A DNA stretch of 47,020 nt, from assembly GCA_016787605.1 (NCBI GenBank), contig JAEUUE010000092.1, forward strand, positions 1 through 47,020, in the 5' to 3' direction. The DNA comes from Cyclobacteriaceae bacterium (GTDB taxonomy: Bacteria > Bacteroidota > Bacteroidia > Cytophagales > Cyclobacteriaceae). The position numbers and the translations under genes are program-made. This document shows, piece by piece, positions 40,076 through 44,399 of this stretch. Under the pieces are notes generated by a model. That model ran no database searches. It was not told the DNA's origin and saw only the letters and a program-made list of their open reading frames with translations. Numbering within the stretch: the stretch's first letter is position 1; every line of letters starts with the position of its first letter.

Positions 40076-41422
40076 TTAGTGCACGTGTGCCTCGGCGGCT
40101 TTCTTGAACTCGTCAAGGGTCACCTTTTTCTCGGTGATCGTGATCTTTTCCCTGACCGCCTTCATGATCTTTTCGTAGCGTACCTGGTTGTACACCCGCA
40201 TGAAGTTCTCTCCCTTGCCGTCCTGGCCGGAGAGGTAGTTGTCGGCAATGGCGTCAAACTTGTCGCCAAGCTGCTCGATGATGGCGGGGCCGCCGAACTG
40301 CTGGGCGATGAGGTGCTTGGCGCGGTCGCGCACTTCGCCTGATTCCACATTGACCTTCAGTTCTTCCGCGATCTTGTTCTTGATGAGATCCCATTTGAGG
40401 CCTTTCTTGTAGGCTTCGAATTCCTTCCCGAGCACTTCGTCGGTGATCTTGCCCTCCCCGGTAGCCTTCAGCCAGGACTTCAGGAAGTTGTCGGGCATGT
40501 TCACCTTCGTATGGTCGACCAGCGCATGTTCGATTTCATGATCGAGGAGGTGGTTGCTTTCCCGCTGGTAGTTTTCGCTGATGGTCTCGCGGATCTTGTT
40601 GACGAATTCTTCCTCGCTCTTCACCACATCTTTGCCGAACACCTTGTCGAAGAGCTCCTGGTTCATCTCCGCCGGTTCCATGTGGCTGATGTTGGTAACT
40701 TTCAGGGTATATGTTCCCTTCAGGTTACCGGCTTCTTCCTCGGTCACGTTCATGATCTGCGAAAGCACAGCGGCATCATCCGTCAGTTTTTCCACATCGA
40801 AGCTTACCGTATCGTCCTTCTTGAGTCCGACAAACTTCTTTTGTTCGTTCTTGGCCAGCTTGGGAATCTGGAGGTAAGAGGATTTGGCGGTTCCGTCCGG
40901 TGAAGTAACTTCTCCGAAGAGGTTGTCGTCGGCGGTGCTTACTTCCGGGTTGGTCACGTTGCCAAAGCGGCGCTTCATGTCGCCAATAGTTTCCTGGACG
41001 ATCTTGTCGTCCACTTCAATGACATAGGAGGTGACCTTTACCTTGGGGGTGAGGTCAATGTTGAAATTCTCGACCAGGCCGATCTGGAACTCGAATTCGA
41101 AGTCCTTCTGATTATCCCAGTCGATCTGGCGGGCCTTCTCATGGTTGGGAAGCGGGTCGCCGAGAACGGTCAGCTTTTTTTCCTTGATATAGTCGGAGAC
41201 CGAATGGGAGAGGAGGTGATTGACTTCTTCGACCAGAATGGTGCGGCCGTACATTTTACGGACCACACCGGTGGGTACTTTTCCCTGGCGGAAGCCTTTG
41301 ATGTTCATCTTCCGCGAGTACTCTCTTACTTTTTCCTCCACTTTGGGAAGATAGTCGGTCTCGGCCAGCTGGATACGGATGATGCCCTCGGTGGGTGTCG
41401 CTTGATCAAGTGTAATGTTCAC
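40076..41422 (-). CDS. tig: Trigger factor
   Basis: A 448-residue ribosome-associated chaperone. The ribosome-binding signature GFRQGKVP is at residues 43-50 in the N-terminal domain. The middle PPIase domain is degenerate (no clear FKBP active site), as is usual in Bacteroidota, and the C-terminal domain is helical. The start codon is GTG (41422) and gives the family-like MNITLDQAT. It has its own terminator; the tRNA-Leu cluster begins 106 bases upstream of its start. Confidence 0.94.
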   Translation of the reverse strand: MNITLDQATPTEGIIRIQLAETDYLPKVEEKVREYSRKMNIKGFRQGKVPTGVVRKMYGRTILVEEVNHLLSHSVSDYIKEKKLTVLGDPLPNHEKARQIDWDNQKDFEFEFQIGLVENFNIDLTPKVKVTSYVIEVDDKIVQETIGDMKRRFGNVTNPEVSTADDNLFGEVTSPDGTAKSSYLQIPKLAKNEQKKFVGLKKDDTVSFDVEKLTDDAAVLSQIMNVTEEEAGNLKGTYTLKVTNISHMEPAEMNQELFDKVFGKDVVKSEEEFVNKIRETISENYQRESNHLLDHEIEHALVDHTKVNMPDNFLKSWLKATGEGKITDEVLGKEFEAYKKGLKWDLIKNKIAEELKVNVESGEVRDRAKHLIAQQFGGPAIIEQLGDKFDAIADNYLSGQDGKGENFMRVYNQVRYEKIMKAVREKITITEKKVTLDEFKKAAEAHVH

Positions 41423-41482
41423 TGTTATGGAGTTTAACTACTAATTCCTTTCAATCTACTGGGTCATGGGCCCCGCTATGGT

Positions 41483-41524
41483 TACTGTTTACCGGTCACC
41501 GGCTACTGGTCACCGGTCACTGTT
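41483..41524 (+). repeat. Heptamer tandem array next to the tRNA-Leu cluster
   Basis: Six consecutive 7-base units: TACTGTT, TACCGGT, CACCGGC, TACTGGT, CACCGGT, CACTGTT (consensus YACYGGT). The array ends 4 bases before the first damaged tRNA copy. The consensus differs from the heptamers at 20900 and 24859, but the period and the degree of degeneration are the same. Confidence 0.8.
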
Positions 41525-41528
41525 CAGT

Positions 41529-41655
41529 GCGGATGGAGGGACCCCGACAAAAGCCCTCCGGGCTTCATCGGGGCAGGCTCGAACCCCCACGCCTTTCGGC
41601 ACCAGATCCTAAGTCTGTCCCGACCGCAGTCGGGGTGCCATTACGCCACATCTGC
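41529..41655 (-). pseudogene. tRNA-Leu(UAG) copy interrupted by two palindromic insertions
   Basis: Read on the minus strand this follows the intact tRNA-Leu at 41809-41888 base by base except for two inserts and an A in the acceptor arm (GCAGATG). One 36-base insert (41542-41577) lies in the T-loop; its palindrome is CCCCGA...TCGGGG around an AAGCCC/GGGCTT inner stem. The second (41618-41635, TCCCGA...TCGGGG) replaces seven bases of the D-arm. The anticodon loop with UAG and the variable arm are unchanged. With the D-arm broken the transcript is unlikely to work as a tRNA unless the inserts are spliced out, for which there is no sign. Confidence 0.75.
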
Positions 41656-41720
41656 AGCACTTTTTCTTTTCAATCCTCCAGGCCGTCTGCCATGAAGCAC
41701 CTGATCCGTATCACCTGTCC

Positions 41721-41775
41721 GGATGGAGGGACCCCGACACAAATCCTTCGGATTTGATCGGGGCAGGCTCGAACC
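41721..41775 (-). pseudogene. 3' fragment of tRNA-Leu with T-loop palindrome
   Basis: GGATGGAGGGA and CTCGAACC, the 3' acceptor and T-arm of the tRNA-Leu, flank a 36-base insert (41732-41767) at the same T-loop site as in the copy at 41529-41655. The outer stem CCCCGA...TCGGGG and the final CAGG are the same, but the inner stem is AAATCC/GGATTT instead of AAGCCC/GGGCTT, so the hairpin is kept by paired changes. The rest of the tRNA is missing and replaced by another small hairpin (GTTA-TCC-TAAC). Confidence 0.7.
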
Positions 41776-41808
41776 AGTTATCCTAACAGTTCGCTCCATA
41801 AGCACTGT

Positions 41809-41888
41809 GCGGATGGAGGGACTCGAACCCCCACGCCTTTCGGCACCAGATCCTAAGTCTGGCGCGGCTGCCATTACGCCACATCCGC
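41809..41888 (-). tRNA. tRNA-Leu (anticodon UAG)
   Basis: On the minus strand an 80-base tRNA folds fully: acceptor GCGGATG with CATCCGC, D-arm GCG...CGC, anticodon arm CCAGA-CTTAGGA-TCTGG with anticodon TAG (reads CUA), a long variable arm TGCCGAAAGGCGT typical of tRNA-Leu, and T-arm GGGGG-TTCGAGT-CCCTC. CCA is not encoded. It is the only intact copy in a cluster of damaged copies, so it is probably the working gene. Confidence 0.95.
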
Positions 41889-41915
41889 CTAATAACATGG
41901 GATGCGATGGTAATG

Positions 41916-41964
41916 GATCCTAAGTCTGCCCCGACGGGTCGGGGTGCCATTACGCCACATCCGC
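41916..41964 (-). pseudogene. 5' fragment of tRNA-Leu with D-arm palindrome
   Basis: The minus strand reads GCGGATGTGGCGTAATGGCA, then a 16-base palindrome CCCCGACCCGTCGGGG (41929-41944), then CAGACTTAGGATCC: the 5' half of the tRNA-Leu down to the anticodon loop. The insertion site is the same as that of the second insert in the copy at 41529-41655. The 3' half is missing. Confidence 0.7.
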
Positions 41965-42007: not shown

Positions 42008-42055
42008 CGGCTGCCATGGAGTTTACCCTGAGCTTGTCGAAAGGGCCACATCCAC
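42008..42055 (-). pseudogene. 5' fragment of tRNA-Leu with a different D-loop insert
   Basis: The minus strand reads GTGGATGTGGC, then 27 foreign bases (42018-42044) containing CCTTTCGACAAGCTCAGGG, then ATGGCAGCCGG. The insert replaces GTA of the D-loop. It belongs to a different repeat than the CCCCGA/TCGGGG elements; a similar CCCTTCGACAAGCTCAGGG word occurs as a dispersed repeat in many bacterial genomes. The upstream flank ATGTGAC is shared with the fragment at 41916-41964, which points to duplication. A further trace (ACATCCGC at 42081-42088) may be one more remnant. Confidence 0.6.
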
Positions 42056-42176
42056 ATGTGACAAACATCCTATCGGGGCTACATCCGCAGGAAACCCCTT
42101 TTCAACAATCTTTTTGCGAAAAGGAGTGCAAATTTAGAGATTATTCGTTACCATAGAAGTCCAAAAGACTATCATC

Positions 42177-44399
42177 TTGGTGACTTCGGCTGTTACGGAT
42201 TCTGTGGAGGAGAAAAGGGAGATCATCAACCGCTACCGGCGGTTGCTTCGCAAGAGCAAGCCGGTACTCAAGGGAAATGATGCCAAGCTCATCAAGAGGG
42301 CGTTTACCCTGGCCCTGGAGGCGCATAAAGACATGCGCCGCAAGTCGGGCGAGCCGTTCATCTTTCACCCGTTAAGCGTTGCCGAGATTTGCGTTGAAGA
42401 GATTGGCCTGGGAACCACCGCCATCATCGCAGCCCTGATTCACGACGTCGTCGAGGACACCGACATCGAACTGGCCGACATCGAGCGGATGTTCGGAAAA
42501 AAGATCGCCAAGATCGTCGACGGTCTCACCAAGGTCAGCGGCGTATTCGAATACGGAACGTCGCAGCAGGCGGAGAACTTCCGCAAAATGCTCTTCACGC
42601 TTTCAGAAGACGTGCGCGTGATCCTGATCAAGCTGGCCGACCGGCTGCACAACATGCGCACCCTCGAGAGCATGCCGCGCAACAAGCAGCTGAAGATCGC
42701 TTCCGAGACTATTTACCTGTATGCCCCGCTGGCGCACCGGCTGGGGTTGAATGCGATCAAGACGGAACTCGAAGATCTCTACCTCCGGTTTACGGATGGG
42801 GCGGTGTACAACGAGATCAACAACAAGATCGATGAGTCCAAGGCGACGCGCAACAAGTTCATCAAACAATTTGTGGCGCCCATCAAGGAGGAGCTGGACC
42901 GGCTGAAAGTGGATTACGAAATCAAGGGCCGCCCGAAATCGATCTTCTCCATCTATAACAAGATGCGCAAGCAGAATATCCCCTATGAGGAGGTGTATGA
43001 CCTGTTTGCCATCCGCATCATCATCGATTCCCCCCTGGAGCAGGAGAAAAGCTTTTGCTGGCAGGTGTACTCCATCGTGACGGATTATTACACGCCCAAT
43101 CCGGACCGCCTGCGCGACTGGATCAGCACGCCCAAGGCCAACGGGTATGAGTCGCTGCACACTACGGTGATGGCCAAGAACGGCCATTGGGTGGAAGTGC
43201 AGATCCGGACCAAACGGATGGACGAGATTGCCGAAAAAGGATATGCGGCGCACTGGAAATATAAAGACAGCATCAGCAACCAGGAGTCCAACCTGGAGAA
43301 ATGGCTGGTGCGGGTGCGCGAGACGCTGGAGAAGCAGGATACCACGGCGCTCGAATTTGTCGACGATTTCCGCGGCAACCTGTTTACCGAAGAGGTCTTC
43401 GTCTTCACGCCGAGGGGCGAACTCAAGACCCTTCCGGCGGGAGCCACGGCACTGGATTTTGCTTTCGACATTCACACCGACATCGGAGCCAAATGCATCG
43501 GGGCCAAAGTCAACCAGAAACTGGTGCCGATCAACCACGCGCTGAAAAACGGCGATCAGATCGAGATTCTTACCTCCTCCAAGCAGAAGCCGAATGATGA
43601 CTGGCTCCGGTTTGTGGTGACCCAGAAGGCCAAAGCCAAAATCAAGGACCTGCTGAAGGAGGCCAAACGCAAGCTGGCCGACGAGGGGAAGGAAGTGCTG
43701 CAGCGCAAGATGAAGCAGCTGAAGATCGATTCGACTAACCAGGTCTTTGAGGCCATGCGCACGTTCTTCAACGTGAACTCGCAGCTAGACCTGCATTACG
43801 CAGTGGCCACCGGTCGCATCGGGCTGTCCGAACTTAAACGCTTCAAGGAATACAAACCGGAGTCCCCGCGCCCCAAGGTGGAAGAAATTCGGCGAGAGGG
43901 AGAGCCACACGCCCGGAAACCACACGAAGACATTCTGCTCATCGGCGAAGACATGGATGTCGTGGAATACAAACTGGCCAAGTGCTGCACGCCTATCCCC
44001 GGCGACGAAGTCTTCGGCTTTGTCACCATGAACGAAGGCATCAAGATCCACCGCACCAATTGTACCAACGCCCCTGAACTCCTGTCCAATCACGGTCACC
44101 GGGTTATCAAGGCTAAATGGACTTCGCAGCATGAAGTTGCCTTCCTGACGGGTCTGAAAGTGGTGGGGACCGACCGGGTGGGGCTGATCAACGACGTTTC
44201 CAAGATCATTTCGGAGGAACTCAAGGTGAACATGAGTTCGATTGCCTTTCGAAGCAACCAGGGCATTTTTGACGGCGAAATCATGCTTTATGTCAATGAC
44301 ACCCGCCACCTCGACTTGTTGATCAAGAAGCTGGAAAAGGTGGAGGGGGTGGTCAAGGTATCGCGCTTTGACTCCGCCACGATGAGCCGGCCGCAGTAG
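42177..44399 (+). CDS. Bifunctional (p)ppGpp synthetase/hydrolase (Rel/SpoT)
   Basis: A 740-residue stringent-response enzyme. The HD hydrolase domain is intact (FHPLSVAE at 63-70, HDVVEDTD at about 89-96). The synthetase domain carries [27 protein letters not shown] and EVQIRT. A TGS domain ([24 protein letters not shown]) and a C-terminal ACT domain ([24 protein letters not shown]) follow. The start is probably TTG at 42177 or GTG at 42180; no ATG is near, which may keep expression low. The intact HD set suggests both activities. The tRNA-Leu cluster lies directly upstream. Confidence 0.95.

Follow-up and report, generated by a model that had tools for sequence, protein, structure and literature searches.

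The window analyzed here, a stretch of 47,020 nucleotides of a Cyclobacteriaceae bacterium (contig C151 of a 3.98 Mb genome assembled in 191 contigs), contains one intact tRNA-Leu (UAG) gene surrounded by three degraded copies of itself, which carry four GC hairpins. These copies are probably relics, or derivatives devoid of an ORF, of tRNA-targeting GIY-YIG homing elements, which would restore the tRNA and mark the place of their insertion with a hairpin. A GIY-YIG nuclease ORF is enclosed by this kind of arrangement in relatives of the microbe, and hence the hairpin appears to mark an element that targets tRNA genes.

The tRNA-Leu Locus of the Window

The intact tRNA-Leu (41807..41888, minus strand) was detected by ARAGORN and by Rfam (RF00005, 56.4 bits at 41808–41888). 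All three copies lie on the same strand. Copy 1 (41527..41655) is a full-length copy with hairpins in both the T loop and the D arm, recognized from the direct repeats D1, D3, and D5 and from a BLAST match of tRNA positions 28–67 at 100%. Copy 2 (41717..41789) corresponds to the 3′ part, as seen from the sequence and the repeats (its end was judged by eye), and on its upstream side the letters of the anticodon loop are enclosed in a palindrome (CGAAC..TTAGGAT..GTTCG, by eye). Copy 3 (41916..41964) corresponds to the 5′ part and has an ortholog in the nearest relative, being identified by sequence, repeats, relatives, and BLAST. It is adjoined by a near-complement of the tRNA 5′ end (41897..41915, no strand assigned, ends approximate and set by eye), where a one-T length change between this genome and the nearest relative is matched on both arms (by eye). 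Two further short repeats similar to the tRNA 5′ end, GCCACATCC and GCTACATCC, are located at 42045..42095 (repeat family D4, 94 and 78%, no strand assigned). The D loop of the intact gene has one T fewer than the genes of the relatives and its own copies share this loss, which suggests copying or conversion between gene and copies.

The four hairpins are found exactly where a preliminary description of this DNA had placed them. The two in the T loop (41542..41577 in copy 1 and 41732..41767 in copy 2, minus strand, from sequence and pattern search) are both 36 nt long with CAGG at the end on the plus strand, and read on the tRNA strand as CCTG, CCCCGA, an inner hairpin, and TCGGGG. The one in copy 1 (CCTG-CCCCGA..TCGGGG) is, compared to the intact gene, a clean insert between the G and the T of GTTCGAG^TCC, with no nucleotide lost. 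Their inner stems (AAGCCC/GGGCTT versus AAATCC/GGATTT) differ in two pairs, both compensated, in agreement with what had been described. The two in the D arm, which have no strand assigned, are located at 41618..41635 in copy 1 (from by-eye comparison with the intact gene) and at 41929..41944 in copy 3 (from sequence, pattern search, and the ortholog in the nearest relative). They do share their junctions, AGTCTG before and TGCC after the hairpin on the plus strand, but are not the plain insertions formerly proposed, each one replacing the same 7 nt of the gene (GCGCGGC, read on the plus strand). The hairpin at 41618–41635 begins with T, so that its outermost pair is T-G.

A short tandem repeat at 41480–41520 (GGTTACTGTTTACCGGTCAC and a copy) adjoins copy 1, and the same kind of repeat bears the hairpin elsewhere in the genome. 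Neither a nuclease ORF nor a GIY-YIG remnant was found at the window locus. A group I intron of the tRNA-Leu was considered and rejected, given that no intron family of Rfam was matched at gathering score in the window. At the contig end (46917–47020) the window contains the start of a 16S rRNA gene.

Conservation in Relatives

The locus is flanked by a trigger factor gene (40076..41422, minus strand; TIGR00115 at 172.3 bits, slightly below its cut-off of 180.2) and by a gene on the plus strand (42177..44399) which we take to be RelA/SpoT-like and which served as synteny anchor, since it was found in 36 of 39 genomes. The tRNA-Leu lies beside it in 27 of the 30 loci scanned, a neighborhood that is thus old. 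Partial tRNA-Leu (UAG) copies were detected by BLAST in only three of these 27 loci (our genome, G023, and G033), all three with hairpins and without an ORF, and the remaining ones are empty orthologous sites, the copies being present or absent depending on the genome. G023 is the nearest relative by the flanking relA-like protein (86% identity), and its ortholog of copy 3 has the same junctions with TCCCGATAGACATCGGGA in place of CCCCGACGGGTCGGGG. The paired positions have therefore changed together, and the proposal that pairing is kept while the sequence changes is borne out at this D-arm junction. In G033, which belongs to another family of the order, the hairpin is CCTGCCTGTCGGCAGGCAGG, at GTGCG^TCTACC.

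Small GIY-YIG Nucleases Beside tRNA Genes

In G023 (Ala, Leu-CAA, and Ser) and G006 (Pro and Arg) a small ORF separates the marked copy from the intact tRNA, and all five of these ORFs matched the Pfam family PF01541 (GIY-YIG) with E-values of 7.7e-15 or better. The nucleases have about 80–95 residues and a single domain. One ORF was searched against solved structures, and its best sequence relatives there were UPF0213 proteins (PDB 1zg2 and 1ywl), which are single-domain GIY-YIG proteins of similar size, followed by SLX1. A search of 24 genomes provided 70 loci (L257–L326), comprising matches in frames under about 300 residues together with some UvrC-like ones. A model built from five seeds was matched by 57, and the other 13 (UvrC-like and others), none of them with a tRNA, were excluded. 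Thirty-six of the 57 have a tRNA at a distance of up to 700 bp (less than 60 bp in 28 cases), and these are always on the strand of the tRNA (36/36). The remaining 21 have no tRNA within 700 bp; 13 of these make up a branch of the protein tree devoid of tRNAs, and some others are at contig ends. The catalytic residues Y, Y, G, R, and E are conserved in 38/38, 37/37, 38/38, 35/38, and 36/37 sequences, respectively, and related nuclease pairs from different genomes had pN values of 0.19–0.30 versus pS values of 0.65–0.98, with synonymous differences near saturation.

Adjacency to tRNAs is clustered in the phylogeny. A protein tree (60 proteins, 80 columns, many forks unresolved) required seven changes of tRNA adjacency, compared to a mean of 18.0 in shuffled data, and none of 500 shuffles was as low; the 13 rows without tRNA form one single branch. 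One row (L282) carries a wrong tRNA name, ARAGORN having taken its marked copy for a tRNA. Tree neighbors often share tRNA identity (Phe, His, Val, and Leu-CAA), and there are also mixed groups, Thr with Met and Pro with Arg. Hairpin words are shared by tree neighbors as well, TGCTGAC..GTCAGCA in a Phe and a Ser element and CCTGCCCGACTGAC.. in Leu elements.

Element Anatomy and Hairpin Marks

Two layouts were recognized. In the first one, the intact tRNA and its terminator are followed by the ORF, a marked 3′ part of the tRNA, and the same terminator; in the second one, a promoter and a marked 5′ part precede the ORF, the promoter again, and the intact tRNA. In 32 of 39 adjacent loci (the 36 above and three of G023 located via their tRNAs) the far side of the ORF holds a partial copy of the tRNA in question, and no partial copy was detected in the other seven. 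With a hairpin defined as a perfect stem of at least 6 pairs, at least 4 of them GC, 26 of 32 partial-copy windows contained one, versus 31 of 640 control windows from the same loci (seven loci skipped).

The position of the mark is diverse. It is found in the T loop, at GTTC^GATTC, in Leu, Glu, and Arg elements; in Gly, Pro, and Val elements it takes the place of the anticodon arm, in Asp that of the T loop region, and in the Ser element it splits the anticodon loop. The two fixed sites of the preliminary description are thus just the examples that the window offers, the site being the T loop, the D arm, or the anticodon arm or loop depending on the tRNA and on the lineage of the nuclease. 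The analogy drawn there with the insertion of Rickettsia palindromic elements (RPE) into working genes has to be abandoned too, as the hairpins sit in inactive copies adjoining an intact tRNA.

Distribution Across the Phylum and Tandem Arrays

An alignment of the small GIY-YIG proteins (22 rows, threshold 1e-10) has matches in at least 91 of the 148 genomes searched in the phylum. T9SS/OmpA-like matches in our own genome, which stay under their curated cut-offs, and the taxa accompanying the hits also point to Bacteroidota. When the best locus per genome was taken (30 loci among the matches listed), 28 of 30 were adjacent to a tRNA; the other two, L327 and L338, are both near a contig end. One of the 30 (L328) is the Pro locus of our own genome, already counted above as L284. 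Including 20 more regions, which were hand-picked, many of them for their array look, and three of which (L357, L359, and L366) duplicate places already covered, 46 of the 50 loci are tRNA-adjacent, all 46 on the strand of the tRNA. Hairpins were present in 28 of 37 partial-copy windows versus 49 of 740 controls (10 loci skipped and the three duplicates omitted), counts in which the windows can include terminator hairpins and the best stem is not always the mark. Partial copies below the hairpin threshold amounted to six of 32 in the first set and nine of 37 in this one. One locus of the phylum adjoins a tmRNA. In L372 (G072:C44) two tandem GIY-YIG ORFs were observed beside a tmRNA gene, with repeated spacers that are alike.

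There are also tandem arrays of three and eight units. In the one-contig genome G172, three units are spaced by 317 bp, each one consisting of promoter, positions 1–28 of tRNA-Pro, TCCCGACAGGTCGGGA, and the ORF. The flank upstream of the first unit differs from that of the others, and it is the promoter region shared by the later units that precedes the intact tRNA. An insertion at the position of the hairpin that supplied a replacement 5′ part would leave such a pattern. The array of eight units (L360, G094:C34:6300–10500) has spacers resembling tRNA 3′ ends, and ARAGORN calls no tRNA in the locus.

A pattern scan over contigs of other genomes gave six matches, three of which are marked pseudo-tRNA loci, from a Bacteroidetes MAG (L144, Gln), Bacterium BMS3Abin03 (L148, Gln), and a Patescibacteria MAG (L145, Val, GTTCAAG^TCC). 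The other three (L143, L146, and L147) were discarded, being not tRNA-like and without any tRNA found by ARAGORN. No GIY-YIG was detected in the DNA examined around L144, L145, and L148; either the nuclease was lost or another agent was at work.

Pseudo-tRNAs in the Genome of the Window

We have surveyed 33–34 tRNAs of the genome, besides reading its nuclease loci, with a tRNA list that lacks the Pro gene on C93 detected by ARAGORN. Nine pseudo-tRNA loci were found. Six are clear, hairpinned partial copies beside the intact gene (Leu-UAG, Leu-CAA, Thr-UGU, Pro, Arg-CCG, and Arg-CCU), and three are weaker or remote: Gly-CCC rests on a 13-nt match, Ala-GGC has a 59-nt insert folding into small stems, and the Asn copy is about 24 kb away from its intact gene. 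A GIY-YIG ORF lies between marked copy and intact tRNA at Thr-UGU (with one internal stop) and Pro, both matching PF01541, and the Pro hairpin is tagged with CCTG and sits in the T loop, as those in the T loops of the window do. The other seven loci, that of the window among them, have no GIY-YIG ORF, so that the link between the window and the nuclease goes through shared anatomy.

At two Arg loci the halves of a pseudo-tRNA stand on either side of the intact tRNA, which thus splits the arms of the hairpin (L038, C134 at ~79.1–79.4 kb, and L161, C136 at ~3.6–3.8 kb). Stem changes in the pseudo-tRNA-Arg of C134 are compensated (by eye). We considered these nested loci as split tRNAs and set the idea aside, because in C136 the outer anticodon stem lacks its 5′ strand (by eye). 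On C169 (L028, positions 1–2600) there are hairpinned tRNA-Leu (CAA) copies and a tandem duplication with a hairpin as junction, and an ORF for a Y1_Tnp (RAYT-like) protein ends ~120 bp from them.

The CCTG Hairpin Family and Alternative Origins

The preliminary description had made its idea of a mobile structured element depend on the hairpins occurring elsewhere in the genome, and pattern searches do find further copies, including some in other tRNA copies; it was right in regarding them as a repeated family. We relied on pattern searches instead of a covariance model because the loops are too variable. The motif CCCCGAC..TCGGGG has 13+16 matches in the 3.98 Mb genome versus 0+1 for the reversed control (perfect palindromes count on both strands), 29 versus 1 in all, and this outer motif is therefore not due to chance. 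The sequence CCTGCCCCGA was found at 17+14 sites (2+5 for the reversed one), 30 of which were taken as loci. Twelve are closed elements, with G before and T after in all 12 (using the outer arm where nested) and no duplication, and some are nested in others. Only four are in tRNA copies (two in the window, Leu-CAA on C169, and Asn on C172); among the other eight, seven are in short tandem repeats (e.g., GGTGACC or CTCGG) and one elsewhere, so this hairpin can spread without a tRNA. The hairpins at G^T within GGTGACC/CTCGG tandem repeats are on C117, C120, C134, C138, and C173 (L056, L058, L060, L062, L063, and L075), and two of those in tandem repeats enclose a second, nested hairpin.

In another genome, G026, there are 27 matches of CCTGCCCCGA..TCGGGG; in the ten contexts inspected none is in a tRNA, and most are not at G^T. 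No partial copies adjoining 30 tRNAs were found in this genome (20 loci examined of 41 tRNA matches); one of its tRNA-Pro genes (L259) has nonetheless a nuclease and a marked copy. In BMS3Abin03 (G041, L167–L196) most of 25 copies of CCTGYCCCGA..TCGGG lie inside a second palindrome, cattcccactg..agtgggaat, forming a composite repeat.

One could think of the hairpins as REP-like elements mobilized by a Y1 (RAYT) transposase, with CCTG as foot and G^T as target. Duplicated tRNA copies would then have been hit on account of their being dispensable, and the nuclease would be incidental. A four-nucleotide tag followed by a hairpin, the G^T context of all 12 closed elements, the lack of duplication, and the nesting are what such elements would give, and the genome has four Y1_Tnp matches (three over the cut-off), one of them in the ORF ending ~120 bp from a hairpin cluster. 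Bacteroidetes enzymes of subclass 2.6 are described, in the part of that work available to us, as having atypical structures without GTAG (PMC6006769). Nevertheless, we consider this origin unlikely: CCTG adjoins a stem of at least 6 pairs at three of the four Y1 loci and the CCCCGA family is at just one of them, the tag is CCTG or none, neither GTAG nor CGTC, and the hairpins of marked tRNA copies differ in sequence according to the lineage of the nuclease and in many cases stand in place of an arm.

Replication errors are a further candidate, as tRNA genes stall forks, and template switching could produce tandem and inverted copies, with quasi-palindrome correction keeping the pairing without any function. 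The inverted pieces beside copies 2 and 3 with their matched length changes, and the tandem duplication having a hairpin as junction, fit such a process. It would leave unexplained the nuclease ORF on the strand of the tRNA (36/36 and 46/46) and the enrichment of GC hairpins, and we regard it as quite improbable. As for the hairpins being cut out of the transcript, the interrupted copies then being working tRNAs with tiny introns, removing the T-loop hairpin of copy 1 would indeed give an unbroken T arm, but we regard this reading as extremely improbable. It was rejected, as was the RPE-like one, because 7 nt, some of them from the D stem, are lost to the D-arm hairpins, because truncation is common among the copies at other loci, and because there is an intact gene next to them; the lack of an Rfam intron match in the window also speaks against introns.

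A Proposed Model of Self-Rescuing Elements

We favor the origin of the window copies from tRNA-targeting GIY-YIG elements. In complete elements, a one-domain GIY-YIG gene is flanked by an intact tRNA and by a partial copy of it, with all three on a single strand. A GC hairpin is usually present in the partial copy, either interrupting a loop or standing in place of an arm. The nuclease would cut a tRNA gene, and repair from a copy of the element would bring in the ORF along with a substitute 5′ part and its promoter, or a substitute 3′ part and its terminator. One intact tRNA would thereby be rebuilt, and the displaced half would remain as the marked copy. The hairpin would prevent this marked copy from being cut or from working as a tRNA, and repeated events would lead to tandem arrays. 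In the window, the ORF would have been lost, leaving marked halves on both sides of the rebuilt tRNA. The hairpin may protect the remnant from the nuclease, may keep the nuclease message away from tRNA processing, or may be a product of the repair. One argument against this explanation is that an active nuclease would be expected to cut the intact tRNA next to it as well.

On a broader scale we suggest, tentatively, a phylum-wide group of intron-less, self-rescuing mobile genes living on tRNA (and apparently tmRNA) genes. They would borrow the promoter or terminator of the tRNA and repay the host with a replacement half-gene. The displaced half would become a pseudo-tRNA disguised by its hairpin and overlooked by the nuclease and by tRNA processing alike. 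The small CCTG hairpins could come loose and spread at G^T sites without the nuclease.

Comparison with Known Systems

The nearest experimental parallel, from the part of the report that we could access, is SegB of phages T4/T6, a free-standing GIY-YIG homing endonuclease beside tRNA genes that cuts tRNA-containing DNA and drives the tandem amplification of the segB-tRNA unit (PMC13096335). It resembles the elements described here in the location of the nuclease next to tRNA genes and in the tandem units of nuclease and tRNA. That same part of its description includes no hairpin-marked partial tRNA copy. Unlike this phage system, the small GIY-YIG elements have a one-domain ORF and are found on bacterial chromosomes, associated to many different tRNAs and once to tmRNA.

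Mitochondrial homing genes, such as that of Allomyces atp6, carry a replacement piece of the target gene. There, as proposed here, the insertion comes with a gene fragment that makes the host gene whole again, and the piece it displaces stays behind; the targets are protein genes versus the tRNA genes of our elements. We know of no hairpin mark in these homing genes.

Among small repeats, REP elements are short tagged palindromes of 20–40 nt, as are the hairpins here, but the sections of the RAYT literature that we consulted (PMC3733652; PMC6006769) describe GTAG/CGTC tags, which are absent here, where the tRNA-linked hairpins accompany a GIY-YIG ORF. RPE are, as far as the accounts we could consult go, also palindromes inside genes, located in frame in protein genes, whereas the window hairpins are in inactive tRNA copies. 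Cyanobacteria reportedly have small dispersed repeats, which Elhai et al. are said to have treated as very small mobile repeats and which would thus be similar to our hairpins. To our knowledge, no GIY-YIG or tRNA-rescue anatomy is associated to them.

The portion of the GIY-YIG superfamily survey that was examined describes no tRNA-linked elements (PMC1564403). We recognized no description of such elements in bacteria in the literature searched, a collection that omits most subscription papers and preprints, and this family of small, putatively tRNA-invading nuclease genes is widespread and apparently undescribed. As tRNA genes are essential, a selfish gene living inside them must avoid killing its host, and the solution seems to be readable from the sequence in many genomes of the phylum, and in the arrays, as a replacement half-gene plus a hairpin-marked remnant. 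Such elements would account for the broken tRNA copies found near tRNA genes and provide a source of tRNA duplication, and they would be a testable model for how a nuclease of ~80–95 residues picks among tRNA genes.
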